Source: Rhizobium sp. PP-CC-3A-592 (GTDB taxonomy: Bacteria; Pseudomonadota; Alphaproteobacteria; Rhizobiales; Rhizobiaceae). From it: a stretch of 64,000 nt of DNA. Shown piece after piece: positions 1 to 43,682 of this stretch (positions within the stretch are counted from its first letter, which is position 1; every line of letters starts with the position of its first letter). A model generated the notes under the pieces. The model did not search any database. It was given only the letters and a program-made list of their open reading frames with translations, and was not told where the DNA came from. The stretch is taken from NCBI RefSeq assembly GCF_003217095.1, contig NZ_QJSR01000006.1, positions 75,377 to 139,376 of the forward strand. The letters run 5' to 3'. A program made the translations under genes and the position numbers.

Positions 1-1332
1 CTGGATGTAGGTGAACTGGATGTTGGGCGAGATCGCCTTCATCGACGCGTCGTAGCCGAGTTCGGTGAGGACGCTGGCGATATAGGTGCCGATGCCGCGG
101 GCGACCGCATTGTCCTCGGCAATGACCGTGACCTTCTGCCCTTTGGTGCCGCTCTCGTCCACCAGCGCCTGCGCCTTCTCCATGTCCGGCTCGGACCAGC
201 TTTCGCCGGGCGCCTTGGTATAGAGGCAGCTATCGACGTGGCCGGGGAAGTCCGGCGGCAGGATCTGGCAGACCGGCTGGGCGAGCACTTCGCCGCCGAA
301 GAGGCCGACGAGCGCATCACGATCCAGCGCATAGTTGACCGCCTGGCGCACCTTCACATTGTCGAAGGGGGCAAGGTTGGTGTTCATCGGGGCATACCAG
401 AAGGCGGCCAGCGGATCGATATGCACCTGGCTTGCATATTTCGCGCCGATTTCCGGCAGCCGGTCTGAGGGCGGCGTGTCGAACATCCAGTCGATCTGCC
501 CGTTGATGATGGCGTTGATCGCCGCTTCCTCGGTCAGACCAAACTTGTAGACGACCTCGTCGGCATAGCCGTCCGGCTGCGCGTCGACGCTCCATTCCTT
601 GAAGGAAGGGTTGCGCTTCAGCACCATCTCGGCGTTCGGGTCGTAGCTGGCGATCATGTAGGCGCCGGTTCCGGGGATGGGCGTGGTGCCGGCGTCGGTC
701 AGCGGTGCGTCGGCCGGCAGGATCGAGGCGTGGGGCACGGCGAGCTTCGAGAGGATTTCGGCGTCCGGCGCAACGAGGTTGATCGTCACCGTTCCAGCCG
801 TGTCGTCACCCGTCACGCCGCCTTCCAGCGTGCAGCTTTCCGGCGTCGCGATGCAGGCATCGGCCCCGACGATGCCATTGTAGAAGCTGCCCGTCGTCGG
901 CCCCTTGATCTTGAAGATGCGCTGGAACGAGGCGACGACGTCGGCGGGGGTGACGTCCTTACCGTTCGAGAACTTGATGCCCTTGCGGATCTTGAAAACA
1001 TAGGTCTTGCCGTCATTGGTGGGCTCCGGCAGGGCCTCGGCGATCGATGGCACGATGTCGAAGCCATCGGTGCCGGCCGCCTGCTTGAACTTCACGAGGC
1101 CATCATAGGTCATCTGGAAGATCTGCCAGAACTGGGCCGTGTAGTTGATCATCGGATCCACGGTGCCGGCGGCCGAGACGGCGGCGAGCGTGAGGGTACC
1201 GCCGCGATGCTCGGTCATGAGGGCCGCGCGATCCTGCGCCTGCGCGGTACCGCCAAGCGCCGTCTGGGCGAGAAGGCAGGTCGCGAGCATGGTGCCCGCG
1301 TGTCGTGTCAGCTGTTTCAGGCGAATGGTCAT
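1..1332 (-). CDS. Dpp/Opp-type ABC transporter substrate-binding protein (3' part cut by window edge)
   Basis: Periplasmic solute-binding protein of the SBP_bac_5 (peptide/nickel) family; 444 codons are present and the C-terminus lies outside the window. The N-terminus is a signal peptide (basic start, hydrophobic stretch, cleavage probably after AQA). Family signs are the stretch FKIRKGIKFSNGKDVTPADV near residue 115 and a VRQAVNYALDR motif near residue 340. The ATG at 1332 follows an AAGGGAA ribosome-binding site. It is the fourth gene of the leftward AmiC/AmiR operon, 66 bases after the hydrolase, so it probably imports the amide or peptide cleaved by that hydrolase. Permeases are expected just outside the window. 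Family is certain; the ligand is inferred. Confidence 0.9.
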   Translation of the reverse strand, partial: MTIRLKQLTRHAGTMLATCLLAQTALGGTAQAQDRAALMTEHRGGTLTLAAVSAAGTVDPMINYTAQFWQIFQMTYDGLVKFKQAAGTDGFDIVPSIAEALPEPTNDGKTYVFKIRKGIKFSNGKDVTPADVVASFQRIFKIKGPTTGSFYNGIVGADACIATPESCTLEGGVTGDDTAGTVTINLVAPDAEILSKLAVPHASILPADAPLTDAGTTPIPGTGAYMIASYDPNAEMVLKRNPSFKEWSVDAQPDGYADEVVYKFGLTEEAAINAIINGQIDWMFDTPPSDRLPEIGAKYASQVHIDPLAAFWYAPMNTNLAPFDNVKVRQAVNYALDRDALVGLFGGEVLAQPVCQILPPDFPGHVDSCLYTKAPGESWSEPDMEKAQALVDESGTKGQKVTVIAEDNAVARGIGTYIASVLTELGYDASMKAISPNIQFTYIQ

Positions 1333-1398
1333 GATCGTCGTTCCCTTGTTGTTATGGTTTTGGCGTTGTCATGCGTCTTTATGCTTGTGGCTGGACCG

Positions 1399-2292
1399 TC
1401 AGGGTGCCGTTTCCGCGAGGAAGGCTCCCACCACGGCCATGCAGTCTTCCCGTTCCTCCACATGCGGCATGTGGCTCGACTGCTCGAAGATGGTCCAGCG
1501 GACGTCCGGGATCTCATCGGCATAGGGCTGGACGCAGGCTTCCGTCGCCTCGTCGAAGCGACCGGATATCAGCAGCGTCGGCACGGAAATGGTCGAAAGA
1601 CGGCCGACGATCGACCAGTCCTTCATGGTGCCGATGACGTGGAACTCGTTGGGGCCGTTCATGGTGTGGTAGACGGTCGGGTCCGCAGCGATCGCATCGA
1701 ACGTGCGCTGGACCTCCGGCGGCATGGGCACGACGCGGCAGACATGACGCTGGTTGAAGACGTCGGTCGCCGCGGCATAATCCGCGCTGTCCGTCGTTTT
1801 CGCCTGCTCGTGCTCAAGAAGGGTTTCCTGCACGTCCTCCGGCAGCTCCCGGCGCAGCCGGTTGGCTTCCGAGATCCAGGTGTGCATGGAGGCCGGTGAA
1901 TTGGCGATGATCAGGGCCTTGAGGCCTTCCGGCCGGTCGACGGCGAATTCCGCACCCAGCATGCCGCCCCAGGACTGCCCGAGTAGGCAATAAGCCTGGC
2001 GGATGCCGAGATGGTCGATGAGGTTGTGGAGTTCAGCCTTGAAGAACGGAACGGTCCAAAAGTCCCCGCCCTTCTCCGGGAGATGCGTCGATTGCCCATT
2101 GCCCACCTGGTCGTAGTGGATGACGGCGCGGCCGGTGGCGGCGATGTCCTTGAAGCTGTCGACATAATCATGCGTGCAGCCCGGGCCGCCATGCGCGACG
2201 ATCAAAGGCGGCATGGGCGAGGACAGGTCACCGGTGACCCGATACCAGGTCTGGTATTCGCCATAGGGTGCAAAGCCTTCGATGATCTCCAT
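1399..2292 (-). CDS. Alpha/beta hydrolase, proline iminopeptidase / amino-acid amidase family
   Basis: A 297-residue cytoplasmic alpha/beta hydrolase. Visible motifs are the oxyanion loop HGGPG near residue 36, the nucleophile elbow GQSWGG near residue 105, an acidic residue in GRFDE and the late histidine in SSHMPHVEE, which together form a Ser-Asp-His triad. HGGPG is typical of proline iminopeptidases and related L-amino-acid amidases. The ATG at 2292 is chosen because AGGAGAGG sits just upstream and it clears the preceding gene by 22 bases; an in-frame codon at 2343 would run into that gene. Being third in an AmiC-AmiR operon, it probably hydrolyses an amide or small peptide amide. The exact substrate is unknown. 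Confidence 0.85.
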
Positions 2293-2314
2293 CGTATCCT
2301 CTCCTCGTCCATGT

Positions 2315-2905
2315 TCAGGCACCGCTGCGGGTGTGTTTGTCATTGCGGCAGATGGCCTCGGCCGCGTCCTCGATGGTCATGCCCCAGTCCATGGCAACGG
2401 AGCGCAGGCGCTTCCATGCCGCGGCCTCACCGCCGCCTTCGTTCTGGAGCAGGTGCAGGATGGCGCGCACGACGATCGGGCGCTGGCGCAGCCGGTCTTC
2501 CAGGACGCGAATATTGTCGGCCTGCGCTCGAACCTGCTCATAGGCATGGGCTGCGATCAGCAGCGCGCTGTAGGCGCCGGTAGAGCTGATGGGTTTGAGC
2601 AGATGTGCGTTCGAGCCCTGGTCCAGCGCCCATTCGATCCGTCCCGGCGCTTCCGAACCGATCAAGGCAATCATCGGCATAGGTGCAAATCCCCGCGGCC
2701 ATGGGAATTGACCGTCATGTCCCATGTCGGCGTCGAAGAAGATCACATCGGCTTGCACCAGGCTTTCGTCCAAGTGCGGCCAGCAGAGCGTCACGTGGAT
2801 CTGCAGGAGTTCGAGTTGCCGTCGCAGCGCATCGACAGACGGATGATCGCGATGCAGGATGACGGCGCGCCATTGCGCGAGAGGTGGTCTGTTCCGGCGC
2901 GTCAT
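2315..2905 (-). CDS. AmiR-like ANTAR-domain RNA-binding antiterminator (copy 1)
   Basis: A 196-residue protein, the same length as AmiR of Pseudomonas aeruginosa. The N-terminal part (about 1-120) resembles the degenerate receiver domain of AmiR (CWPHLDE, then [10 protein letters not shown]). A helical linker (about 125-150) leads to a C-terminal ANTAR three-helix region (about 150-190). In the family, AmiR is held by AmiC until an amide binds, then binds leader RNA and prevents termination. It overlaps the upstream AmiC-like gene by four bases, indicating translational coupling and stoichiometric production. The leader of this operon carries an intrinsic terminator at 4129-4168, fitting this role. 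Function is inferred from family and context. Confidence 0.85.
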
Positions 2906-4053
2906 TTGACCACCTTCAGCGTTACCGGATGGGGGGCAGTCACCCTCTTCATCAAGGAACGGACGAGATAGGGATCGGCCGTGATAACCTCGTTGGCACT
3001 CTGGAGCAGGGTAAAACCACCGTCTTCGTCTGATAGACCCAGATGCGGCCGGAATGCCGCGTGATGGGTGCGGGGATCGATCCCGATCGGCCCAACGGGC
3101 GTGTCAAACAGCCTGGATGTCGCGATGCTTCGTACGGCCTCTGGTGCATCCGAGCCGGCGTCGGCAATTGACCGAGCAAGGATCGACATCGCCATATACG
3201 CCGACATGAAGGGTGTTGAGACAATCCGGCCCCCACCCTGACGCGCAGCCATACGAGCCTTGAAAGCTTGATTCTCAGGCGTTTCCAGCCGATCGAAATA
3301 GATCGACGTCGTAACGTGGCCGCATCTTGCCTCAGGGCTTAGACCATGGAGATCGCTTTCCGACATATTACAGGCAACAATCAGTGGTGCATCAGGCTGG
3401 CGTTTGCGAAAGACGCCGTAAGCCTCGATAAAGGCCGTTGCCGACTGGCCGACCAGATTGCTGAAAATGAAATCCGGCTTCTTCTCTTGGATTTCCGTGA
3501 CGAGATGATCAACCTCTGTGGAGCCGAGCGGTACGTAGCGATCCGAAACGACCTGACCTCCGGAAGCCTCGGTGATTTCCCGGGCGATGCGACTGATCTC
3601 CCAACCCCAGATGTAGTTCGACCCAACGATAAATGGCCGGCGACCATGGCGCGGCAGGACATAATCAAACAAAGGCAGCAGGTGCTGGTTCGGACATGGG
3701 CCCAAATAGACAACGCTGTCGCTCGCCTCATAGCCTTCATAGGGAAAGGCGTACCACAGAAGCGCTCCGTTACGCTCCACGACCGGTAGCAGATCCTTGC
3801 GGCTCCACGACGTGAGGGTGCCGATGATGTGTCGACAACGGTAATCGCGGATCGCGGACTGGCCCAGACCGGCATATGCCTCCGCCCGACCGCAAGGATC
3901 GTCAATCTTGGCGGCAATTGTGAAGCCATAGGCGGGATCTGAATTGATCTCTGCGACCGCTGCCATTGCTCCGCTCACAGCTTCGCGGCCGACAGCCGCA
4001 TAAGGGCCTGTGGTCGAATAGAGGATGGATACCGGCACGGTATTCAGAGACAT
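2902..4053 (-). CDS. AmiC-like cytoplasmic amide sensor (copy 1)
   Basis: A 383-residue type I periplasmic-binding-protein fold, close to the 385 residues of P. aeruginosa AmiC, with no signal peptide: it begins MSLNTVPVSILYSTTGPY, so it should stay in the cytoplasm as a sensor rather than serve a transporter. Family-like motifs are PYEGYEASDSVVYLGPCPNQ near residue 105 and NYIWGWE near residue 146. The start at 4053 has AGGAGC about ten bases upstream. It is the first gene of the leftward operon and overlaps the AmiR-like gene. It shares ILYSTTGPY, CPNQHLLP and WGWE blocks with the divergent copy at 4700, so the two are paralogues. The ligand is probably a small amide; this is inference. Confidence 0.88.
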   Translation of the reverse strand: MSLNTVPVSILYSTTGPYAAVGREAVSGAMAAVAEINSDPAYGFTIAAKIDDPCGRAEAYAGLGQSAIRDYRCRHIIGTLTSWSRKDLLPVVERNGALLWYAFPYEGYEASDSVVYLGPCPNQHLLPLFDYVLPRHGRRPFIVGSNYIWGWEISRIAREITEASGGQVVSDRYVPLGSTEVDHLVTEIQEKKPDFIFSNLVGQSATAFIEAYGVFRKRQPDAPLIVACNMSESDLHGLSPEARCGHVTTSIYFDRLETPENQAFKARMAARQGGGRIVSTPFMSAYMAMSILARSIADAGSDAPEAVRSIATSRLFDTPVGPIGIDPRTHHAAFRPHLGLSDEDGGFTLLQSANEVITADPYLVRSLMKRVTAPHPVTLKVVK

Positions 4054-4128
4054 TTGCAGGAAGCTCCTATCTTGATCCGTCCGTGCTACGGTTTACGTCC
4101 CATTATTCGCATCGAGGCCGCTGAAAAC

Positions 4129-4168
4129 AAAAAAAGCCCCGGACCGCGTTGAGCGGTGTTCGGGGCTT
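4129..4168 (-). terminator. Intrinsic terminator in the leader of the leftward amiC operon (attenuator)
   Basis: On the minus strand, AAGCCCCG (4168-4161) pairs with CGGGGCTT (4141-4134), with an inner ACCGC/GCGGT stem and a five-base loop, followed by seven T (4135-4129). This is a strong rho-independent terminator. It lies between the likely promoter (4205-4233) and the amiC start (4053), so it acts in a 5' leader, where an AmiR-like protein would be expected to prevent termination. A short GGC/GCC hairpin with a six-base loop (4175-4164) shares GCC with the terminator's left arm and could be the competing structure; that part is speculative. Confidence 0.85.
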
Positions 4169-4204
4169 GATTGCCAGCGGCGTAAAACGCCATTTGTTGA
4201 AGCC

Positions 4205-4233
4205 ACGCTAAGGCAAGCATCGATTTCAGTCAA
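4205..4233 (-). promoter_or_regulatory. Probable sigma-70-type promoter of the leftward amiC operon
   Basis: Reading leftward, TTGACT (4233-4228) and TAGCGT (4210-4205) are separated by 17 bases, an acceptable housekeeping promoter with a weak -10 element. Transcription would start near 4198 and run through the terminator at 4168-4129 before reaching amiC at 4053, giving a leader of about 145 bases. The match is by eye only. Confidence 0.6.
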
Positions 4234-4545
4234 ATCTATTTTCTGCTCATTTTTTACCCAGCCGCCTATCACTTTATGGCATTACGATGGGATGGTCGCG
4301 GCCGAAGCTCTGGAGTAGCGGCACGCGCGCCGTCGGCCTCCGATCCGACATGCAGCTGTACGGCTATGGAATGCAAAGGTTGCCGAAACGCGATTGGAAG
4401 CGCAGGCTAAGACAACGGAGACGCACTCTAAGTCCCGTCCACCATAATCAGAAACCTATTGTGCTTCAACAGCTTAAGGCGACGTTTCTCCTTCCGTAGG
4501 AAATATCACCGCGTTATCACGGACGGACATTTCCACTTAACGCCC
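4234..4545. other. Intergenic region between the two divergent ami promoters
   Basis: About 310 bases between the leftward and rightward promoters. I see no credible gene: a short open frame at 4287-4499 has no ribosome-binding site, no recognisable protein and an arginine-rich composition typical of chance frames. It may hold activator or catabolite-control sites, but no clear palindrome stands out. Confidence 0.6.
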
Positions 4546-4574
4546 TTGACAAAGGGGCGTGCCCGTATTTTAAT
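4546..4574 (+). promoter_or_regulatory. Strong sigma-70-type promoter of the rightward amiC operon
   Basis: TTGACA (4546-4551) and TTTAAT (4569-4574) are separated by exactly 17 bases, a near-consensus housekeeping promoter. Transcription should begin near 4581, giving a leader of about 120 bases that contains the terminator at 4638-4685 before the amiC start at 4700. Strong constitutive initiation combined with leader termination is the expected layout for antitermination control. Confidence 0.75.
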
Positions 4575-4580
4575 CATGCA

Positions 4581-4640
4581 ATACGATTAAGCAGTTAGCG
4601 TATTTCACATGGCCTTTCATGGCCACTGGGCAGTTTGGCC
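4581..4640 (+). promoter_or_regulatory. Leader RNA hairpins upstream of the rightward attenuator (candidate ANTAR target)
   Basis: Three hairpins can be drawn. The first is 4581-4603 (ATACG pairs with CGTAT). The second is 4610-4625, TGGCC and GGCCA around a six-base loop. The third is 4621-4640, GGCCA pairing with TGGCC. The second and third share GGCCA and so exclude each other, and the third shares GCC (4638-4640) with the base of the terminator stem. Known ANTAR targets are paired small hairpins with six-base loops, the second overlapping a terminator. The loop here (TTTCAT) does not show the usual A at position 1 and G at position 4, so the assignment is tentative. Confidence 0.5.
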
Positions 4641-4685
4641 TCATGACGTCCCGTCTTCGACGGGAAACACGTCATGGGGCTTTTT
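4638..4685 (+). terminator. Intrinsic terminator in the leader of the rightward amiC operon (attenuator)
   Basis: A twelve-pair stem, GCCTCATGACGT (4638-4649) with ACGTCATGGGGC (4669-4680), containing one G-T pair, encloses a second stem CCCGTC/GACGGG (4650-4664) and is followed by five T (4681-4685). It sits between the promoter at 4546-4574 and the amiC start at 4700, so without antitermination few transcripts should enter the operon. It is the counterpart of the terminator in the divergent leader. Confidence 0.9.
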
Positions 4686-4699
4686 CGTTTGGGCTTATC

Positions 4700-5836
4700 A
4701 TGCGTGACGCGGTGAAAATTGGCATCCTGTATTCCACAACCGGTCCGTACGGATCGATGGGGCGGGACGCCTGGGACGGTGCGGAACTGGCGATCGACGA
4801 ACTGCAAGATGCGTATGCGGGCCGCATCGTGCCGGTGTTCATCGATCCGAAGGCAAACATCCCGGACTATCTGGACGGTGCACGCAGCATGTTACGCGAC
4901 CATGGTTGCCGGCATATCGTTGGCACCATTACCTCGCTTGCACGAAAGGAAGTGCTGCCTCTCGTTGAAAAGCACGACGGTCTCTTGTGGTACATGTGCC
5001 CTTACGAAGGCTTCGAGGCCAACGAGAACGTCGTCTATATCGGTGGCTGCCCGAACCAGCATCTGCTGCCGGTTTTCGACTACCTCATCCCGCGTTATGG
5101 CAACCGACCCTATCTCGTCGGTGCAAATTACGTCTGGGGTTGGGAAATGAACCGGTTGGCACGGGAGCTGATTGCCGCTGCGGGCGGCGAGGTTCTCGGC
5201 GAGCGGTATCTCCCGTTCGAGGAAACCGCGGTCGAGCGCATCGTCGCCGACATCGAACTCCGGCGGCCCAGCTTCATTCTCAACAATCTGATCGGCCCGT
5301 CGAGCTACGCCTTTCTCGCCGCGATCAAGGCGCTCGGCGCCCGAGACCCGGCCTTCAGGCCGGACAACTGCCCCGTTGTCAGCTGCGATCTCACGGAATG
5401 TGAACTTCCCGACATCGGGATCGGCGTTGCCACAGGACAACTCAGTGCCGCAGCGTACTTCGACAGCATACCAACCGCAGAAAATCTTGACTTCAAGCGA
5501 CGCGTGGCGGCCCGTTTCGGCGCCAGCCGGCGGATTTCCAGCGTCTTCGCCTGCGCCTACACATCCTTGAAATTATGTGCCGAGGCAATCATCGCTGCCG
5601 GCACGGACGATCCGGTCGCGGTACGGCGGCTCCTGTCGGCTAAGCCTGCGCGGTCCATTCTCGGGCCGATCCTCATCGATCCGGAGACCCATCATGCGGC
5701 ACTTCCGTTTCATCTCGGACGCATCAACGATGACAACGTTTTCGAGATCGTGACATCTCAGGCGGCGATTGCAGCCGATCCTTATCTGACTGGACGCAAC
5801 CGTCGATCTGTGCCGCAATTGCGGGTCGTTTCATGA
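4700..5836 (+). CDS. AmiC-like cytoplasmic amide sensor (copy 2)
   Basis: A 378-residue type I binding-protein fold without a signal peptide; it begins MRDAVKIGILYSTTGPYG. Shared blocks with the copy at 2902-4053 include the STTGPY start, PYEGFEAN, CPNQHLLPVFDY and NYVWGWEM, so they are paralogues. By analogy with P. aeruginosa AmiC it should bind an amide and release the AmiR-like partner. The ATG at 4700 is preferred: an in-frame start at 4619 would lie inside the leader hairpins and add residues absent from the other copy. The ribosome-binding site is weak (GGG about eight bases upstream), and the start lies only 15 bases after the terminator's T-run. The next gene overlaps by four bases. 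Confidence 0.88.
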   Translation: MRDAVKIGILYSTTGPYGSMGRDAWDGAELAIDELQDAYAGRIVPVFIDPKANIPDYLDGARSMLRDHGCRHIVGTITSLARKEVLPLVEKHDGLLWYMCPYEGFEANENVVYIGGCPNQHLLPVFDYLIPRYGNRPYLVGANYVWGWEMNRLARELIAAAGGEVLGERYLPFEETAVERIVADIELRRPSFILNNLIGPSSYAFLAAIKALGARDPAFRPDNCPVVSCDLTECELPDIGIGVATGQLSAAAYFDSIPTAENLDFKRRVAARFGASRRISSVFACAYTSLKLCAEAIIAAGTDDPVAVRRLLSAKPARSILGPILIDPETHHAALPFHLGRINDDNVFEIVTSQAAIAADPYLTGRNRRSVPQLRVVS

Positions 5837-6414
5837 AGGAAACGCCAAACTTTTCAGGCTGGCACGCAGCGCTTCTGCACCGCGAGGACAGCATGACGGA
5901 CCGCCTTGTCCGCCAGCTCAAACTATTGGGTTGCTCCGTGACGCAGCAATGGCAGCCGCTCGCCGCAGACGCGCTGCCCGACATCGTGCTGGTTGATGCG
6001 GATCAGGGCTGGGACGGGCTTCTGCCTTGGGCCGGCGGAACCGCACCCCGCCCGCTGGTCGCGCTTCTCGGTTCGGAAGCCCCCGGGCGCATCGCATGGG
6101 CAATCCAGCAGGGAGCAGGTGCGGTCATCGCTAAACCGCTTTCCGTATCCGCGGTCTACCCGGCGCTCGTCATGGCGCTCGGCATCCACCGCGAGCGCAT
6201 CGCGATCTCCCAGAAGATCGAGCACCTAGAGGAGCGGGTCCGGCTGAGACCGCTCGTACATGCTGCCGTTCAGCAGATCATGGCCGCACGAAAGGTCGAC
6301 GAGCACCATGCCTACAACACCTTGCGCAACTGTGCCATGAAACGGCGAATGGCCATGGAGCAGATGGCAGCCTCGATCGTCGGTGGCGCGGAGCCGATGC
6401 CGGAGGCCGTTTGA
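5833..6414 (+). CDS. AmiR-like ANTAR-domain RNA-binding antiterminator (copy 2)
   Basis: A 193-residue AmiR homologue. A receiver-like domain (about 1-120; LKLLGCSVTQQWQPL, then DIVLVDADQGWDG) is followed by a coiled linker with KIEHLEERVRLRP and a C-terminal ANTAR domain whose HAYNTLRNCAMKRRMAMEQ stretch closely resembles the equivalent part of Pseudomonas AmiR (AHQHLSREAMKRR). It overlaps the AmiC-like gene by four bases and the DppC gene by one base. It probably relieves termination in its own leader at 4638-4685 and may also act on the divergent leader. Which leader each of the two AmiR proteins recognises is unknown. Confidence 0.88.
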   Translation: MKETPNFSGWHAALLHREDSMTDRLVRQLKLLGCSVTQQWQPLAADALPDIVLVDADQGWDGLLPWAGGTAPRPLVALLGSEAPGRIAWAIQQGAGAVIAKPLSVSAVYPALVMALGIHRERIAISQKIEHLEERVRLRPLVHAAVQQIMAARKVDEHHAYNTLRNCAMKRRMAMEQMAASIVGGAEPMPEAV

Positions 6415-7262
6415 TGCGTGTCCTCAAAACGATGATCCGCCAGCCTTCGGCGCTTTTCGGTCTGTTGATCGTCCTGCTCGTCATAGCGCTGGCCATCGCA
6501 GCACCTCTGATCGCGCCCTACAGCCCCGACGAACAAATGTTCGACGGCCTGACCCTCGAGGGCGCCCCGATGCCGCCGGGCGCGCAGTTTCTTCTCGGGA
6601 CAGACACGCTCGGCCGCGACCTTTTTTCGCGGCTCCTCTACGGCGCCCGAACCTCCCTCGTGATCGGTCTCGTGGCCAACGGGGTCGCTGTGTCCATCGG
6701 CCTTCTCATCGGCATCCTTGCCGGTTACGTGCGCGGCCTCCTCGGCAATCTGCTCATGCGGTTCACGGATCTGATGATGGCCTTTCCGGCCTTGCTGCTC
6801 GCTATCGTGCTGGCGGCAGTGCTGCGGCCAAGCCTCTGGATCGTGGCGATGGTGATCGCGCTGGTGAACTGGGTTCAGGTTGCGCGGATCGTCTACACGG
6901 AAACGCGCGGCCTCGTGGAGCGCGACTTCATACTGGCGGAGCGCGCGCTCGGGGCAGGCCATCTCCGTATTCTCTTCCATCACATCCTGCCGCATCTGAT
7001 GCCGACAGCGATCGTCTGGGGAACGCTCGGCATCGCAACCACCGTGCTTCTCGAAGCGACCCTGTCCTTCCTCGGCATCGGCGTTCAGCCGCCGCAGCCG
7101 TCCTGGGGCAATATCATTTTCGAGAGCCAGAGTTATTTCCAGGCCGCTCCCTGGCTGGTCTTCATTCCCGGCGCCGTGATCCTCCTGACGGCCCTGTCGT
7201 TCAATCTCGTCGGGGATGCGCTGCGCGACATCCTTGATCCGACACAGCGCGGGAGAGGTTGA
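6414..7262 (+). CDS. ABC transporter permease, DppC type
   Basis: A 282-residue inner-membrane permease of the dipeptide/nickel (BPD_transp_1, OppC) family. It has an N-terminal membrane segment (LLIVLLVIALAIAAPLIAPY), a conserved FLLGTDTLGRDLFSRLLYGAR block near residue 60, and a cytoplasmic coupling loop containing ERDFILAERALGAG. The ATG at 6414 overlaps the stop of the AmiR-like gene (TGATG); a TTG one codon earlier is less likely. It pairs with the DppB-type permease that follows, the binding protein at 8223 and the fused ATPase at 10868. DppC preceding DppB is the reverse of the usual order. Confidence 0.9.
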   Translation: MRVLKTMIRQPSALFGLLIVLLVIALAIAAPLIAPYSPDEQMFDGLTLEGAPMPPGAQFLLGTDTLGRDLFSRLLYGARTSLVIGLVANGVAVSIGLLIGILAGYVRGLLGNLLMRFTDLMMAFPALLLAIVLAAVLRPSLWIVAMVIALVNWVQVARIVYTETRGLVERDFILAERALGAGHLRILFHHILPHLMPTAIVWGTLGIATTVLLEATLSFLGIGVQPPQPSWGNIIFESQSYFQAAPWLVFIPGAVILLTALSFNLVGDALRDILDPTQRGRG

Positions 7263-7263
7263 G

Positions 7264-8184
7264 ATGGTCCTGCTGCTTGCCCGCCGCTTCATTCAAACGG
7301 CTTTGATCCTGCTTGGCGTCGCTGCGATCACGTTTCTGCTGCTCTACGCGCTGCCTGCCGATCCCGCCCGCATGATCGCCGGCCGCAGCGCAACAGCGCA
7401 GACCGTCGCCAACATTCGGCATGAACTCGGACTCGACAAGCCGCTACCGGTCCAGTTCTGGGCCTATCTCCAGGGCATCGTCACGGGAGACCTCGGGCGG
7501 TCCTATGCGCAGAAGACGGATGTCGGTACGCTCATCGCTGCCCGGCTTCCCGCAACGCTCGTGCTGATGGCGGCCGGTATCTTCATAGAGGTGCTGCTCG
7601 GCGTCACCTTCGGCGTGGTCGCGGCCATCCGTCGCGGCGGCGCGGTCGACCGGGTCGTGATGATGGCATCTTTTGTCGGAGTCTCCGCGCCGCAATTCGT
7701 GGTTGCCCTGCTGCTGCTCTATCTCTTCGCCGTCACGCTTGGCTGGTTTCCGATGAGCGGCTTCGGCACCTTCGCCCATGTCGTCCTTCCGGCGACCACG
7801 CTCGGCATTCTCGGTGCCGGCTGGTACGCGCGCATGGTGCGCTCGGCGATGATCGAGGTGCTTAACCAGGATTATGTCCGCACCGCGCGGGCCAAGGGCC
7901 TGTCCTCCGCCCGCATCGTGCTCCGCCATGCTTTGCCGAACGCGTTTCTACCGATCATCGCCATGGTCGGTATCGACATCGGCCAGTTCATGGGCGGCGT
8001 CGTGGTGGTCGAAGCCGTCTACGGATGGCCGGGTATCGGGCAGCTTGCCTGGCAGGCCATCCAGCAGGTCGACATTCCCATCATCATGGGCGTGACACTG
8101 GTGTCGGCACTTGCCATCGTTCTCGGCAATCTTCTTGCCGACATCGTCGCGCCACTCATCGATCCGCGCATTCGAGCGCGCTGA
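7264..8184 (+). CDS. ABC transporter permease, DppB type
   Basis: A 306-residue inner-membrane permease of the OppB/DppB family, with an N-terminal segment (FIQTALILLGVAAITFLLLYALP), the ADPARMIAGRSAT loop typical of the family, and the coupling-loop motif DYVRTARAKGLSSARI near residue 205. The C-terminal block YGWPGIGQLAWQA and the ending DPRIRAR are characteristic. The ATG at 7264 directly follows the stop of the DppC gene (7262). It works with DppC and the fused ATPase as an importer for the binding protein encoded next. Confidence 0.92.
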   Translation: MVLLLARRFIQTALILLGVAAITFLLLYALPADPARMIAGRSATAQTVANIRHELGLDKPLPVQFWAYLQGIVTGDLGRSYAQKTDVGTLIAARLPATLVLMAAGIFIEVLLGVTFGVVAAIRRGGAVDRVVMMASFVGVSAPQFVVALLLLYLFAVTLGWFPMSGFGTFAHVVLPATTLGILGAGWYARMVRSAMIEVLNQDYVRTARAKGLSSARIVLRHALPNAFLPIIAMVGIDIGQFMGGVVVVEAVYGWPGIGQLAWQAIQQVDIPIIMGVTLVSALAIVLGNLLADIVAPLIDPRIRAR

Positions 8185-8222
8185 TAGCAAACCACAGCCA
8201 AAACCAAAAAGGGGAACTCGAA

Positions 8223-9842
8223 ATGTTCAAACGCTGGCTTCGACAGACAACCGTAGCCGTGGCGCTCGCCGTCACGCCGGTGTGCACCTTCGCTCAGGAT
8301 ACCCCCGCACAGGGCGGCGACATCGTCATCACCTACAAGGACGATATCGCCACACTCGATCCCGCGATCGGCTATGACTGGGTCAACTGGTCGATGATCA
8401 AGAGCCTCTACTCCCGCCTGATGGACTACAAGCCGGGAACGCCGGAGCTCGTTCCGTCGCTGGCCGAGACCTTTGAGGTTTCGCCGGACGGCCTCACCTA
8501 CACCTTCAAGCTTCGCAAGGGCGTGAAGTTCTCGAATGGCCGCGATGTCGTCGCATCGGACGTGAAATATTCGATCGAACGTGCCGTGAACCCGAAGACG
8601 CAGGGGCCGGGTGCCGGCTTCTTCGGTGCCATCAAGGGCTTCGACACGCTATCGGGCGGAACATCCGAGACGCTGGAGGGCATCGAGGTGCCTGACGACG
8701 CAACCGTCGTTTTCCACCTGTCGCGTCCCGATGCGACCTTCCTGCACGTCCTCGCCATCAACTTCGCGTCCGTGGTTCCGAAGGAAGCCGTCGAGGCCGC
8801 CGCCGGCGATTTCGGAAAGAACCCGGTCGGCTCCGGCACGTTCGTCCTGAAAGAATGGGTCATCGGGCAGCGTCTCGTCTTCGAACGCAATCCGACCTAC
8901 TTCGTGAAGAACATGCCGCATATCGACAGCTTCACCGTCGAAGTGGGCCAGGAACCGCTGGTCGCGCTGCTGCGCCTGCAGAAGGGCGAGGTCGATATCG
9001 CGGGGGACGGCATCCCGCCGGCGAAATTCCTCGAGATCCGGAACGCGCCGGAAGGCGCCGACATGATCGTCGACGGCGAGCAACTGCATACGGGCTACGT
9101 CACGCTGAACACCAAGGTGAAGCCGTTCGACGATCTAAAGGTTCGCCAGGCCGTCAACATGGCGATCAACAAGGAGCGCATCACCCGCATTCTCAACGGC
9201 CGCGCGACGCCCGCCAATCAAGTGCTGCCGCCGCTGATGCCCGGATACGACAAGAACTACACTGGCTTTGGCTACGATGTCGTGAAGGCGAAGGTGCTGC
9301 TGGCGGAAGCCGGACTTGCCGATGGCTTCGAGACGATCCTCTACTCGACCAATACCGATCCGCAGCCGCGCATCGCCCAGGCGATCCAGCAGGATCTCGC
9401 CGCCATTGGCGTCAAGGCCGAGGTGCGGGCACTGGCGCAGTCGAACGTGATTGCCGCGGGCGGCACCGAAGGCGAGGCGCCGATGATCTGGTCCGGCGGC
9501 ATGGCCTGGATCGCCGACTTCCCGGATCCGTCGAACTTCTACGGACCGATCCTCGGCTGCGCGGGTGCGGTGCCGGGCGGGTGGAACTGGTCGTGGTATT
9601 GCAATGCGGATCTGGACAAGCGCGCGATCGCCGCGGACGCGATGTCCGATCCCGCCAAAGCGTCCGAGCGCACCGCCGCTTGGCAAAAGATCTTCACCGA
9701 TATCATGGCCGATGCGCCGTGGATTCCGGTAACGAACGAACGCCGTGTGGTCGCCAAGTCGCCACGCATGGGTGGCGAAGACAATATCTACATCGATCCG
9801 ACCCGGGTGATCAACTACGACGCGATCTTCGTGAAACCGTAG
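8223..9842 (+). CDS. Dpp/Opp-type ABC transporter substrate-binding protein
   Basis: A 539-residue periplasmic protein of the SBP_bac_5 family. A signal peptide is clear (MFKRWLRQTTVAVALAVTP, cleavage probably after TFA). Family blocks include YTFKLRKGVKFSNGRDV near residue 95 and VRQAVNMAINKERI near residue 310. The ATG at 8223 follows AGGGGA. The gene sits between its permeases and the acetamidase/formamidase, which suggests the ligand is an amide or a compound from which an amide is formed. A stem-loop follows the stop codon (9854-9887). Confidence 0.92.
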   Translation: MFKRWLRQTTVAVALAVTPVCTFAQDTPAQGGDIVITYKDDIATLDPAIGYDWVNWSMIKSLYSRLMDYKPGTPELVPSLAETFEVSPDGLTYTFKLRKGVKFSNGRDVVASDVKYSIERAVNPKTQGPGAGFFGAIKGFDTLSGGTSETLEGIEVPDDATVVFHLSRPDATFLHVLAINFASVVPKEAVEAAAGDFGKNPVGSGTFVLKEWVIGQRLVFERNPTYFVKNMPHIDSFTVEVGQEPLVALLRLQKGEVDIAGDGIPPAKFLEIRNAPEGADMIVDGEQLHTGYVTLNTKVKPFDDLKVRQAVNMAINKERITRILNGRATPANQVLPPLMPGYDKNYTGFGYDVVKAKVLLAEAGLADGFETILYSTNTDPQPRIAQAIQQDLAAIGVKAEVRALAQSNVIAAGGTEGEAPMIWSGGMAWIADFPDPSNFYGPILGCAGAVPGGWNWSWYCNADLDKRAIAADAMSDPAKASERTAAWQKIFTDIMADAPWIPVTNERRVVAKSPRMGGEDNIYIDPTRVINYDAIFVKP

Positions 9843-9853
9843 ACATCTTAGGA

Positions 9854-9887
9854 TGCATCCTCTTCTCGTACCCGGGGAGAGGATGCA
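9854..9887 (+). other. Intercistronic stem-loop after the binding-protein gene
   Basis: TGCATCCTCT (9854-9863) is perfectly repeated in inverted form as AGAGGATGCA (9878-9887) around a 14-base loop. No T-run follows, so it is not a classical terminator. Stem-loops in this position often protect the upstream binding-protein message or reduce transcription of downstream genes, giving an excess of binding protein; that role is inferred. Confidence 0.65.
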
Positions 9888-9923
9888 CAGAGAACAACAA
9901 GTAAACCAATCGAGGGGAACACC

Positions 9924-10868
9924 ATGTGTGTCGCCTGCACCTATACCATTCACCGCGCCCAGCATAATTTCGGCTGGAACAAGGACTTCGAACCGGCCGT
10001 CGTCACCAAGCCGGGAGAGACCATCCACTTCGAATGCCTGGACTCGTCGGGCGGCCAGCTCGGTGCCGACTCGACGCTCGAAAGCCTTGCAGCGCTTGAT
10101 TTCGGGAAGATCAACCCTGTCACCGGGCCGGTCTATGTGGAGGGTGCTGTCCCCGGCGATGCGCTCAAGGTCACCATCCGTCGCTTCATTCCTTCGGGCG
10201 TCGGCTGGACGGCCAACATTCCCGGCTTCGGGCTGCTTGCGGATCAATTCAAGGACCCTGCCCTGCATGTTTGGACCTATGATGCCAACACCATGGCGCC
10301 GTCGCTCTTCGGGCCTGGCGGCAAAGTGCCGCTGAAACCCTTCGCCGGGACGATCGGGGTCGCACCGGCCGAACCGGGACTTCATTCCGTCGTGCCACCC
10401 CGTCGCGTCGGCGGCAATCTCGACATTCGTGACCTGACGTCGGGCGTCACACTCTACTTGCCGGTCGAAGTCGAGGGCGCGCTTTTCTCGATCGGCGACA
10501 CGCATGCAGCCCAAGGGGATGGCGAAGTCTGCGGCACGGCCATCGAGAGCCAGATGGAAGTCGAAGCGAAGATCGAACTTGTCAAGGACGCGCGGTTGCA
10601 GAGCCCACGCTTCACCACGACCGAGCCGGTGACACGTCATCTCGACGGCATGGGCTATGAGGTCACCACCGGGATCGGCCCCGACCTGATGACGGGCGCC
10701 CGCGAAAGCGTCATGCGAATGATCGATCTGCTGGTCGCCGAACATGGCATGAACCCAGTCGATGCCTACATGCTCTGCTCCGTCTGCGGGGATCTCCGGA
10801 TCAGCGAGATCGTCGATATGCCCAACTGGGTCGTATCCTTCTATTTCCCAAGGATCGTGTTTTCGTGA
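9924..10868 (+). CDS. Acetamidase/formamidase family amidohydrolase
   Basis: A 314-residue member of the FmdA/AmdA family, which hydrolyses formamide, acetamide or other short amides to the acid and ammonia. Visible family features are the GQLGADST block near residue 45, VYVEGAVPGDALKV near residue 75, a GTIGVAPAEPG block, and GDTHAAQGDGEVCGTAIE near residue 195, which is highly characteristic. No signal peptide is present, so it acts in the cytoplasm. It lies in the rightward AmiC/AmiR operon between the transporter genes, giving the operon a direct amide-hydrolysing enzyme and supporting an amide as inducer. Substrate chain length cannot be read from the sequence. Confidence 0.92.
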   Translation: MCVACTYTIHRAQHNFGWNKDFEPAVVTKPGETIHFECLDSSGGQLGADSTLESLAALDFGKINPVTGPVYVEGAVPGDALKVTIRRFIPSGVGWTANIPGFGLLADQFKDPALHVWTYDANTMAPSLFGPGGKVPLKPFAGTIGVAPAEPGLHSVVPPRRVGGNLDIRDLTSGVTLYLPVEVEGALFSIGDTHAAQGDGEVCGTAIESQMEVEAKIELVKDARLQSPRFTTTEPVTRHLDGMGYEVTTGIGPDLMTGARESVMRMIDLLVAEHGMNPVDAYMLCSVCGDLRISEIVDMPNWVVSFYFPRIVFS

Positions 10869-12547
10869 TGGTTCAGGCTTCAGCTTCCGCGCCGGTTCTC
10901 GCCGTAGATAAGCTGTGCGTCGATGCGCGCACGCCGGAAGGCCTGCGGCGCGTGATCGACGACGTCAGCTTCACGTTGACGACCGGGGAGACGCTGTGCA
11001 TCGCCGGAGAGAGCGGATCGGGCAAGTCCGTGACATCGCTCGCCGTCATGGGGCTTCTGCCGAAGGCGTCGCTGCAGATCGCCTCCGGCAGCATTGCGCT
11101 TGAGGGGCGGGAACTTTCGCGGCTCTCCAACAGGGCCATGCGAAGCGTGCGCGGCGGCAATATTGCCATGGTGTTCCAGGAGCCGATGACATCGCTCAAC
11201 CCGGTCATGTCCATCGGCGCGCAGCTCGCCGAGGCCATCCGGGAGCATCAGGGCTCGGACGGGAAGAGTGCGGACGCCGTAGCGCTGCGCATGCTCGATG
11301 CTGTTCAAATCACCGAGCCTGCCAAGCGGCTGAAGCAGTATCCGCACGAACTCTCCGGCGGTATGCGCCAGCGGGTGATGATCGCGATGGCGCTGTCGTG
11401 CCGGCCGAAGGTGCTGATCGCCGACGAACCCACGACGGCGCTCGACGTCACGGTCCAAGCGGAGATACTCAGGTTGGTCAACGAACTGAAGCGCGAGTTC
11501 GGCGCGTCGGTTATTCTTATTACCCACGACATGGGCGTCGTCGCCCAGATGGCCGACCGCGTTATCATCATGCAGGCTGGCCGCATCATCGAGCAGGGCG
11601 AAGCCGTGCCGCTCTTCGGTGCACCGCAAGAGCCTTACACCCGCGAGCTTCTGGCGGCCGTGCCACGGCTCGGCTCCTACGCCGGCACAGAAGGCCCACC
11701 GCACAGAAGTCCGCAGCCTGCGCAACCGCAGGGCTCCGATCGGCAGCCGGTTCTGACAGTCCAGAAGCTCGACGTCGCCTATGGCAAGGCAACAGGCTGG
11801 CTGTTCGGCAAGACCCCGCCGTTGCCCGTCGTCAGCGATGTGTCCTTCGAGATCCTGCCCGGCCAGACACTCGGTCTCGTGGGCGAGAGCGGTTCGGGAA
11901 AGTCCACGACCGGCAAAGCGGTCCTCGGCCTCATTCCGTTCAAGGGCGACATCGTCATCGACGACAGAAATATCGGCGTATTGAGCCAGCGCCAGATGCG
12001 CCCGGTGCGCCGTTGTGTACAGATGATCTTCCAAGATCCCTACGCCTCCCTCGACCCCCGCATGGCGGTCGGTGCGGCGATTGCCGAACCCCTTGTCATC
12101 CACGGGCTTGCAAACAAGGGTGAGCGCGAGGATCGGGTGGCCGACCTCCTCCGCCGGGTCGGTCTCGCGCCGGAATCCGCAAGCCGCTATCCGCACGAGT
12201 TTTCCGGCGGCCAGCGCCAGAGGATCTGCATTGCGCGCGCCTTGGCGCTTGGTCCGAAGCTGATTGTCGCGGACGAAAGCGTGGCAGCACTCGACGTTTC
12301 CGTGCGGGCGCGCGTGCTCGATCTAATGCTGGAACTCCAGGAAACGATGGGGCTCGCCTATCTGCTGATCTCGCATGACATGGCGGTGATCGAGCAAATG
12401 TCCCATAACGTCGCCGTGATGCGGTCAGGCCGTATCGTTGAGATGGGGTCGCGCCGGTCTGTGTTCGAAAACCCGCGAAATGCCTATACGCAGGCATTGA
12501 TCGAAGCGGTCCCTGTTCCCGATCCGAAACGCCGCCGCATTGCGTAA
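10868..12547 (+). CDS. Fused DppD-DppF ABC transporter ATPase
   Basis: A 559-residue protein with two complete ATPase domains. Domain 1 (about 8-265) has GESGSGKSV, the signature LSGGMRQR and IADEPTTALD. Domain 2 (about 295-550) has GESGSGKSTTG, FSGGQRQR and VADESVAALD. The fusion is common in this bacterial group and means one polypeptide supplies both nucleotide-binding domains. Walker B of the second domain reads ADES rather than ADEP. The ATG at 10868 overlaps the amidase stop by one base, with a GTG one codon earlier as the alternative. It is the last gene of the rightward AmiC/AmiR operon and energises the DppB/DppC importer. Confidence 0.92.
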   Translation: MVQASASAPVLAVDKLCVDARTPEGLRRVIDDVSFTLTTGETLCIAGESGSGKSVTSLAVMGLLPKASLQIASGSIALEGRELSRLSNRAMRSVRGGNIAMVFQEPMTSLNPVMSIGAQLAEAIREHQGSDGKSADAVALRMLDAVQITEPAKRLKQYPHELSGGMRQRVMIAMALSCRPKVLIADEPTTALDVTVQAEILRLVNELKREFGASVILITHDMGVVAQMADRVIIMQAGRIIEQGEAVPLFGAPQEPYTRELLAAVPRLGSYAGTEGPPHRSPQPAQPQGSDRQPVLTVQKLDVAYGKATGWLFGKTPPLPVVSDVSFEILPGQTLGLVGESGSGKSTTGKAVLGLIPFKGDIVIDDRNIGVLSQRQMRPVRRCVQMIFQDPYASLDPRMAVGAAIAEPLVIHGLANKGEREDRVADLLRRVGLAPESASRYPHEFSGGQRQRICIARALALGPKLIVADESVAALDVSVRARVLDLMLELQETMGLAYLLISHDMAVIEQMSHNVAVMRSGRIVEMGSRRSVFENPRNAYTQALIEAVPVPDPKRRRIA

Positions 12548-12586
12548 AGCAGCCTCGCTCCCACGTGGCACGAAATATGCGTCTCG

Positions 12587-12620
12587 ATGGCATGTCCCTC
12601 CAATGAAAGCGACATGCCAT
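12587..12620. promoter_or_regulatory. Perfect inverted repeat overlapping the LysR start codon
   Basis: ATGGCATGTC (12587-12596) and GACATGCCAT (12611-12620) form a ten-base perfect inverted repeat with a 14-base spacer. The right arm includes the first two bases of the LysR ATG (12619). As DNA it could be an autoregulatory operator; as RNA it would hide the start codon in a hairpin. No T-run follows, so it is not an obvious terminator for the preceding operon. Confidence 0.55.
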
Positions 12621-19887: not shown

Positions 19888-20934
19888 ATGACCCTGCAGG
19901 AAACCGCCGGGAACGAGATCGCCGCCCTGATGGCGGAGATGCCGCATTGGGGCTCGGAGTTCGACCGTACCTTCGCCAACCACGCACCCATGGTGCTGGT
20001 GGCGCTCGCCCGCATCGGCGGAAAACCGCATCAGTTGCGCCGGTTCTTCTCGTACTATCGCGACACGAAGAAGCTCCTGCCCTTTGCGCAGGCGCGATCG
20101 CATCTCACCGTGGGAACATGGACATCCCTTCTCGGCGAGCGGCAGTGCGAGCCGGAACTGCGTCTGTTCTTCGTGGGTGAAGTCTCGCGTCTCGGGCTCG
20201 ATGGCGCTTTGCGGCACTATCTCCCGCGGCTTGCCCCCGGCATCGCGGCAAGCGCTTTCCACGCGCTGATGCGCACGGCCTATGGCGTCTTGGAACAGGA
20301 CCCCGGTGCCGTCGCCATCGCGCTCGGCTACTGGGCCGCCACATACCTGCCGCTTCCTGCGGCGACCGGAGAGAAACCCCGCACCGACGACCCGGCGGAG
20401 GTGCTGGCGCTCACGGCGGAGATTGCGCCGCTGCATGGTCTGCCGCTGCACGACCTCCTCTGGCAGAACATGCGCGATGCGGCGGCCGTGCCCGCCTTCG
20501 GCCCGGTGGTCGACTGGCTGGAGATCGGGCCGGACACGATGGGGCGCATGGCGGGCACGGCGCTGGCACTCTTTGCCGGAACCCAGCATTTCGCAGCGCT
20601 GCACGCCCTCACCGGGCTGCACTGGATCCGCCTCGTTTCCGCACATTGCGATGCGGCAACGACGGACACGATGCTGCGCGTCTTCTGGCAGGGCATCGCC
20701 GCGCTGATGGGTGAGCTGGGCTTCCCCGTCCTGCCGGATGCGACGGCTCTCGACCGCTGGCGCCACCTGCCCGCCCCCGGTTGGGCCGACATCCACGCCG
20801 CTGCTGCCGGGAGCTATGACGAACACGATATCAGCCTTGCCTTTTCGGCTTTCGAAGAGATGGCTGCCTATGGCGATCCGCTCTACAGGGTGGTGGCCGC
20901 CCGACGTCTCGGGATGATCGGAGACTATCGATGA
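19888..20934 (+). CDS. Questin oxidase-family protein (DUF4243-like)
   Basis: A 348-residue, mainly alpha-helical protein that I place in the questin-oxidase-like family from blocks such as NHAPMVLVALARIGG near residue 31, FHALMRTAYGVLEQDPGAVAIALGYWA near residue 130, LTGLHWIRLVS near residue 245 and YDEHDISLAFSAFEEM near residue 310. Fungal members perform Baeyer-Villiger-type ring opening of anthraquinones; bacterial members are uncharacterised. Here it lies between a creatininase-family hydrolase and an amidohydrolase and overlaps the latter by four bases, suggesting an oxygenative or redox step on a ring compound. The family call rests on pattern recognition; the function is unknown. Confidence 0.65.
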   Translation: MTLQETAGNEIAALMAEMPHWGSEFDRTFANHAPMVLVALARIGGKPHQLRRFFSYYRDTKKLLPFAQARSHLTVGTWTSLLGERQCEPELRLFFVGEVSRLGLDGALRHYLPRLAPGIAASAFHALMRTAYGVLEQDPGAVAIALGYWAATYLPLPAATGEKPRTDDPAEVLALTAEIAPLHGLPLHDLLWQNMRDAAAVPAFGPVVDWLEIGPDTMGRMAGTALALFAGTQHFAALHALTGLHWIRLVSAHCDAATTDTMLRVFWQGIAALMGELGFPVLPDATALDRWRHLPAPGWADIHAAAAGSYDEHDISLAFSAFEEMAAYGDPLYRVVAARRLGMIGDYR

Positions 20935-43450: not shown

Positions 43451-43480
43451 AAAAAAAGGGCCGCAGGGTGACCCACGGCC
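43451..43480 (-). terminator. Intrinsic terminator ending the leftward LacI-to-UPF0303 gene run
   Basis: On the minus strand GGCCGTGGGTC pairs with GACCCTGCGGCC-like sequence (43480-43458; GGCCG/CGGCC with inner GGG/CCC) and is followed by seven T (43457-43451). It lies about 200 bases beyond the UPF0303 stop and upstream of the AhpD-like gene, marking the boundary between these units. Confidence 0.8.
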
Positions 43481-43682
43481 TCAAGTCATGAAGGTTAAAC
43501 CTCCAGAGGGGAACGGCTGGCTGCGATCGATCCGGGAGGGGAATGAGAGGGCAGCCAACCAAGGTCAGAATGACCTGTTCTACCAGCGGATTCAAAGACG
43601 GGAGACGCTGTCGGAATGGGTGGATGTGATATTTCCATCTAACCCGCGCCCCTTCGGCGCTATTTCGTTCCAGCCGGGATGC

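Follow-up and report, generated by a model that had tools for sequence, protein, structure and literature searches.

The stretch of DNA analyzed here, referred to as the window, comprises 64,000 nucleotides (nt) of Rhizobium sp. PP-CC-3A-592 (C6:75377-139376 in a host genome of 5.12 Mb in 27 contigs). According to the open reading frame (ORF) list and Pfam, positions 1-12547 hold two divergent gene sets, each led by a pair of genes encoding homologs of the amide sensor AmiC and the ANTAR protein AmiR. In Pseudomonas aeruginosa, AmiC and AmiR are described as controlling amidase by amide-triggered antitermination (PMC3369931). An earlier note, made by reading the same DNA, had placed AmiC-like sensors back to back at 2902-4053 and 4700-5836, each gene overlapping its AmiR-like ANTAR partner by four bases, and the ORF coordinates and Pfam agree in both units. 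All Pfam assignments are above cut-off, with PF13433 in both AmiC proteins and AmiR_N (PF21332) plus ANTAR (PF03861) in both AmiR proteins; the pairwise identity is 44% between AmiC1 and AmiC2 and 39% between AmiR1 and AmiR2.

Unit 1, on the minus strand, consists of amiC1 (2902-4053), amiR1 (2315-2905), a gene for an alpha/beta hydrolase (1399-2343, with a likely start at 2292, near which homology begins) and a gene for a Dpp-type (SBP_bac_5) binding protein that is cut at the window edge (1-1332; PF00496, 206 bits). Unit 2, on the plus strand, starts with amiC2 (4700-5836; the ORF list begins it at an upstream ATG, 4619) and amiR2 (5833-6414; match to the AmiR of 1qo0, E = 1.1e-17). These are followed by two permease genes identified with Pfam, one of DppC/OppC type (6411-7262) and one of DppB type (7216-8184, likely start about 7264), by a Dpp-type binding protein gene (8217-9842; PF00496, 336 bits), by a short-form acetamidase/formamidase of the FmdA/AmdA type (9924-10868; PF03069, 200.6 bits; structures 2f4l, 2ii1 and 3tkk), and by a two-domain DppDF-type ATPase gene (10865-12547; two ABC_tran stretches), about where collinearity with relatives stops. 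The importer and acetamidase/formamidase previously assigned to unit 2 are thus confirmed, whereas the restriction of unit 1 to a binding protein is not: the contig stretch upstream of the window (L065) holds dppC, dppB, dppD and dppF (two permeases and two ATPases) on the same strand, adjoining the binding-protein gene. Because unit 1 continues into a full Dpp-type importer and its hydrolase resembles an L-proline amide hydrolase, both units are thus predicted to be amidase-plus-full-importer operons.

The hydrolase of unit 1 was originally called iminopeptidase-like, which is also the label given by family models (TIGR01250, 258 bits), but its closest solved relative is 7a6g (463 bits, 68% identity over 294 columns), entitled "Structural characterization of L-proline amide hydrolase from Pseudomonas syringae" in the PDB. 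The identification as an L-proline amide hydrolase, known here from sequence, depends on that title; the sequence match is strong by itself. Another family member, VinJ (3wmr), is 56% identical, and the AlphaFold model used in the structure search is of middling quality, with a predicted local distance difference test score (pLDDT) of 73.5. Residues S124 (within GQSWGG) and H291 are invariant in the alignment of relatives; from general knowledge of the fold, we take them to be the catalytic serine and histidine. The enzyme regulated in each unit would accordingly be an amide hydrolase, prolinamide-hydrolase-like in one and of the FmdA/AmdA family in the other. No export signal was seen on the AmiC sensors when their N termini were inspected by eye, and the AlphaFold model of AmiC1 (pLDDT 91.5) has the AmiC fold, with a template modeling (TM) score of 0.88 to P. 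aeruginosa AmiC at 30% identity.

Each amiC gene is directly preceded by a leader with the same order of elements. In leader 1, on the minus strand, a promoter-like site (TTGACT-17-TAGCGT, 4233-4205, -35 box 4233-4228) is followed by a first hairpin, P1 (4191-4179), a second hairpin, P2, with the sequence GGC(AATCAA)GCC (4175-4164), and an intrinsic terminator with a GC-rich stem and a U run (4166-4129). In leader 2, on the plus strand, the promoter-like site (TTGACA-17-TTTAAT, 4546-4574, -35 box 4546-4551) precedes P1 (4610-4625), which is able to form the hexaloop TTTCAT, P2 with the sequence GGC(AGTTTG)GCC (4629-4640) and a terminator of the same kind (4638-4685). The promoter-like sites were found by reading, the terminators by eye and by folding, the P1 hairpins by folding and comparison with homologs, and the P2 hairpins by a hexaloop scan and folding, with conservation as additional support in leader 1. 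A consensus promoter/terminator scan returned none of the two leader promoters or two leader terminators; comparison with homologs supports all four, in agreement with the earlier proposal of a putative promoter and an intrinsic terminator in each leader. Rfam returned nothing at the gathering threshold on the leaders, and the six matches at E up to 10 were all below it and unrelated.

In both leaders, the 3' arm of P2 doubles as the 5' base of the terminator, and the two structures are therefore mutually exclusive. Folding gave -32.1 kcal/mol for the terminator versus -23.8 for the P2-constrained structure in leader 1, and -41.6 versus -34.3 kcal/mol in leader 2; as expected, this ranking, with a stable terminator and a weaker P2, fits a switch that requires a protein. 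In the terminator fold, the 5' GGC of P2 has no pairing partner; the terminator therefore does not account for its complementarity to GCC, which argues for P2 as an element in its own right.

ANTAR targets have been described, and searched for, as pairs of hexaloops that both have A as their first letter (A1) and G as their fourth (G4) (PMC3369931, PMC8164766). The window leaders share with such targets the two stem-loops, the second overlapping the terminator, but a hexaloop is present in P2 rather than in both, and both P2 loops have A1 without G4. No canonical A1/G4 hexaloop with a stem of at least 3 was found in the two window leaders. In EutV, G4 is stacked on Tyr164 and held by Arg142, Lys149 and Glu160 (PMC8934654). 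The window AmiR proteins keep R142, E160 and M172, K149 is replaced by I in AmiR1 and V in AmiR2, and position 164 is W in AmiR1 and Y in AmiR2 (in the contact-residue alignment, the same-genus orthologs L075 and L077 stood in for AmiR2). The AmiR of P. aeruginosa retains the lysine.

The leader pattern was examined in related loci chosen by similarity to AmiC, with an AmiR profile built from trimmed rows. Among 150 units, the residue at the K149 position is V in 84, I in 26, T in 15, K in 12, M in 6 and L in 3, with 4 unscored, two of which are units of the host itself in truncated copies; 134 of the 146 scorable units thus lack the lysine. With the loop letters left free, the 280 nt preceding amiC were scanned for hexaloop hairpins that overlap a terminator; such a P2-type hairpin was found in 123 of these 134 distinct units and in none of the other 11. 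The 123 hairpins include 110 with a GGC stem, 113 with A1, 16 with G4 and 11 with both A1 and G4; in an earlier scan of 55 leaders, a few of them redundant, A1 was present in 46 and G4 in 12. The pairing is kept with other letters as AGC/GCT in L038 and as GGT/ACC in leaders of the K149 type. P1 was counted by script in the 108 leaders that extend far enough upstream and whose P2 has A1 and a stem of GGC or AGC: a P1-like hairpin scored above threshold in 80, compared with a mean of 18.7 and a maximum of 31 in 200 shuffles. The P1 stems are diverse, and the loop, allowed to vary from 4 to 9 nt, has 6 nt in only 6 of the 80. The same 108 leaders carry ACAT within the 32 nt preceding P2 in 73 cases (versus 11.7) and a promoter-like box pair in 79 (versus 0 on the opposite strand). 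A covariance model built from a MAFFT alignment was dropped, as the P1 stems were misaligned and only the 3 pairs of P2 were retained.

The genes that follow the leader are conserved as well. Within loci of at least 9 kb, both an amidase and a binding protein are present in 93 of 109 units; repeats kept, the same 109 units comprise 69 with fmdA only, 23 with the unit 1 hydrolase only, 1 with both and 16 with neither. Specificity was assessed with a genome pattern for P2 and terminator, GGCANNNNNGCCYCN{20,50}GRGGYTTTT, which has three matches in the host genome (reversed control, 0): the two leaders and, on another contig, a chance-like match within a long open frame. A survey of 199 genomes of the family yielded 50 matches in 45 genomes, and 34 of the 50 matches have an amiR 0.9-2.0 kb downstream on their own strand. 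By genome, AmiR_N and the pattern occur together in 35, AmiR alone in 38, the pattern alone in 10 and neither in 116 (Fisher p = 2e-10, uncorrected for relatedness).

The contrast between the two kinds of AmiR was examined in loci over 10 kb, 11 of the K149 type and 95 others, with some places fetched twice. Dual A1/G4 hexaloops with a terminator are present in 4/11 K149-type loci versus 2/95 others, both of the latter chance-like, and a P2 lacking G4 in 2/11 versus 79/95. In 44 one-strand shuffles of the K149-type loci neither arrangement appeared; 25 of the 95 others, in 100 such shuffles, gave each of them once. Three loci with a lysine-keeping AmiR (L085, L086 and L090) share a layout in which textbook dual A1/G4 hexaloops before terminators lie just downstream of the amiR frame, not upstream of amiC. 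The loops themselves differ between the two kinds of unit in the window. In the clade of unit 1, they start with AA in 24 of 27 hand-listed rows, and EutV positions 173 and 175 are occupied by D and G in 20 of the 27; the commonest loops of other units are AGTTTC (24), AGCATG (8) and AGTTTG (7), and in 40 of 47 units with AG loops the two positions hold Q, R or K and then R.

We read these patterns as a probable conserved variant of the ANTAR code, located on otherwise ordinary amide-use operons. A broader proposal is that a large alphaproteobacterial AmiR branch has lost the G4-holding lysine and reads an A1 hexaloop without G4 together with a relaxed P1, and that the window paralogs have diverged at loop position 2 (AA.... 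versus AG....) and in the facing residues, forming two insulated RNA switches side by side; we offer this tentatively, as an interpretation that falls somewhat short of being probable. In particular, the divergence of the loops (AATCAA versus AGTTTG) and of the RNA-contact residues would point to insulation rather than cross-talk by inference only.

Several observations weigh against such a code and against the switch proposed for the two leaders. Since the loci were picked by their similarity to AmiC, the shares given above are biased and are not natural frequencies, and some automatic hairpin picks are doubtful (e.g. L006, L061, L064 and L151). The terminator folds are more stable than the P2-constrained ones, so that P2 would need a protein to form. 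A P2 hairpin next to amiC is present in only 3 of 12 K149 units, 2 of them with G4. Conversely, G4 is retained in eight non-K149 units that have A1 and a GGC stem (L043, L058, L059, L060, L118, L122, L128 and L132), and also in L100, an annotated cassette from a Klebsiella plasmid whose AmiR has L at the lysine position. A strict rule by which G at position 4 follows K149 was rejected on account of these nine cases, and the link between G4 and K149 is, as far as the sequences compared here go, a contrast between clades and not repeated covariation. Finally, 16 of the 50 pattern matches in the family lie elsewhere, and the strict pattern misses 52 of 86 amiR places.

Much of the general scheme has precedents. 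The coupling of AmiC/AmiR to peptide-type transporters, thought at first to be undescribed, is in fact widespread with Dpp-type transporters, and a plasmid-borne acetamidase operon of Klebsiella sp. KOS9 with amiC, amiR, an amidase and four cluster-5 ATP-binding cassette (ABC) transporter genes was published in 2026 (PMC13209695); it resembles the window in bringing these genes together and differs in being a single unit. The L100 cassette, from another Klebsiella plasmid, has the gene order of unit 2 up to fmdA, which is followed by an IS26 transposase gene, with no ATPase gene listed there. Its AmiC is 37% identical to AmiC2, and at about 7430-7475 a hairpin GGT(AATGAA)GCC over a terminator was read by eye, having been missed by the scan because of a G-U pair. 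The amiC/amiR region of the window has partial DNA matches in 857 plasmid records (715 from Klebsiella), at 60-80% identity, none covering more than 80% of the query.

The P. aeruginosa system (1pea, 1qnl, 1qo0) shares with the window the AmiC fold, the AmiR_N plus ANTAR architecture and a leader terminator before the regulated genes; Ramesh 2012 placed a dual hexaloop in the amiE leader (PMC3369931). The window units differ from it in having Dpp-type importers with FmdA-type or prolinamide-type amidases, a leader directly upstream of amiC, AmiR proteins without the lysine kept there, and loops without G4. The EutV-controlled eutP leader likewise has two hairpins, the second overlapping the terminator, and a hexaloop with A1 (PMC3369931 and PMC8934654); unlike it, the window has neither G4 nor the K149 contact, P1 is not an A1/G4 hexaloop, and the partner of the ANTAR protein is AmiC, not a kinase. 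In nitrate antitermination by NasS/NasT, a sensor protein similarly releases an RNA-binding ANTAR protein, the signal there being nitrate or nitrite and the targets nitrate assimilation genes (PMC3795266). Departures from the classical dual motif are reported for some M. tuberculosis ANTAR targets (PMC8934654), and A1/G4 conservation in actinobacteria is given only as "more than 50%" (PMC8164766). In the open-access literature, which leaves most subscription papers outside its coverage and was searched largely at the level of listings, we found no report of such a leader in alphaproteobacteria or of a rhizobial AmiC/AmiR, nor of a branch of ANTAR targets that lacks G4, nor of a prolinamide-type hydrolase in an AmiC/AmiR operon. 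Amide-triggered control by AmiC/AmiR and its link to transporters are known, then, and the interesting part is the variant RNA code with its protein counterpart.

Taken together, the most plausible explanation, which we consider probable, is that the window holds two separate amide-use operons, back to back by chance, each controlled by AmiC/AmiR antitermination through a variant ANTAR target. In each unit, cytoplasmic AmiC would hold AmiR until an imported amide frees it; the freed AmiR would bind the P1 and P2 hairpins of its own nascent leader, and with P2 held closed the terminator would lose its 5' base, allowing RNA polymerase to read on into amiC-amiR, the Dpp-type importer and the amidase. 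The predicted RNA target keeps the hexaloop and A1 in P2 without G4, and the stem of P1 without an A1/G4 hexaloop, and would be read by an AmiR without the G4-contacting lysine. Most likely, judging from the hydrolases, unit 1 serves amino-acid amides such as L-prolinamide and unit 2 formamide, acetamide or a related amide. The suggestion that these are two AmiC/AmiR-type antitermination switches coupled to import and amide hydrolysis is therefore supported at the level of sequence.

The earlier note went further and saw a duplicated twin switch, in which both AmiC/AmiR pairs arose together as one system with two inputs and cross-talk. The pairs are indeed adjacent, divergent and paralogous, with a common P1/P2 layout, and yet their histories appear distinct. 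In a tree of 152 AmiC rows (148 different), built by a quick method that gives both groups a support of 99, AmiC1 belongs to a 30-row clade that includes all 21 rows labeled with a prolinamide-hydrolase operon, and AmiC2 to a separate fmdA-operon clade of 38 rows. Each module has collinear counterparts in relatives from the genus that carry a single unit: unit 1 in L189 and L190 (window 1 to 4326 or 4304, 94% identity) and unit 2 in L067 and L068 (window 4543 or 4545 to 12534-12553). The 216 bp between the shared blocks (4327-4542) have no match among the fetched sequences except the host's own loci. Each of the 7 genomes surveyed in the genus has at least one unit; both types occur in 2/7, adjacent only in the host and on different contigs in one other (G094), and the remaining 5/7 have a single unit, of unit-1 type in 3 and unit-2 type in 2. 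The window is also the sole divergent pair among 182 AmiC-AmiR units in 181 loci, although many of these loci are only 3-4 kb long and show at best part of a neighbor. Local duplication was rejected on the grounds of the separate clades, the collinearity and the single adjacency; as the loops and contact residues differ between the units too, we regard a common origin with cross-talk as decidedly unlikely. What the comparisons point to are two old, separately inherited operon types, whose twin arrangement looks like a local accident.

It could also be asked whether the sensors answer to amides at all, rather than to urea or another small polar compound, with the hydrolases only loosely linked to them. 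Among the fold matches of the AmiC1 model, the urea-binding protein 8tg1 ranks first, and the NCBIfam models nearest to the sensors are UrtA, below cut-off. At the position aligned with T106 of P. aeruginosa AmiC, a residue involved in binding acetamide, AmiC1 has F and AmiC2 has C. The model is, however, about equally similar to urea-binding proteins and to AmiC with acetamide or butyramide, and the operon link to two unrelated amidase families is conserved. Moreover, in Oryzibacter L120/L187 (L120 8783-10633) and in L183 (G281), which branch first within the unit-1 clade, fmdA lies beside a prolinamide-hydrolase-like gene under one AmiC-AmiR, and such hybrid operons tie both hydrolases to the same kind of signal. 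We consider a non-amide signal unlikely. Very improbable, in our view, is that the terminators simply insulate the divergent genes from each other and that AmiR works at some other site, if it works at all. In favor of this reading are the strength of the terminator folds and the fact that read-through is an inferred step; against it, many relatives show the same succession of promoter-like site, P1, P2 and terminator ahead of amiC, and across genomes the pattern goes together with amiR. Control of two amide-use operons by AmiC/AmiR antitermination thus remains the preferred explanation.

Further import genes are located in the remainder of the window (12619-64000), encoding SBP_bac_8 (13648), SBP_bac_1 (25459, minus strand), a Dpp-type ATPase (31967, minus), an OppC-like protein (37751, minus) and a MalK-like protein (49553, minus). 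A LysR regulator gene lies at 12619, and a gene of the amidohydrolase family (PF01979, 121.6 bits) at 20931-22505, about 8 kb past unit 2. Rfam identifies the alphaproteobacterial small RNA ar15 (RF02345, 57.7 bits) at 43453-43560 on the minus strand; this RNA is related to AbcR-type control of transporters.

From the operon link follows a testable class of substrates, the amino-acid amides, for an enzyme labeled iminopeptidase by family models. The recognition code, for its part, can be tested directly on the natural variant pairs of loop and ANTAR residues. If this AmiR branch does read loops without G4, searches based on A1 and G4 would miss many amide operons, and perhaps others, in alphaproteobacteria.

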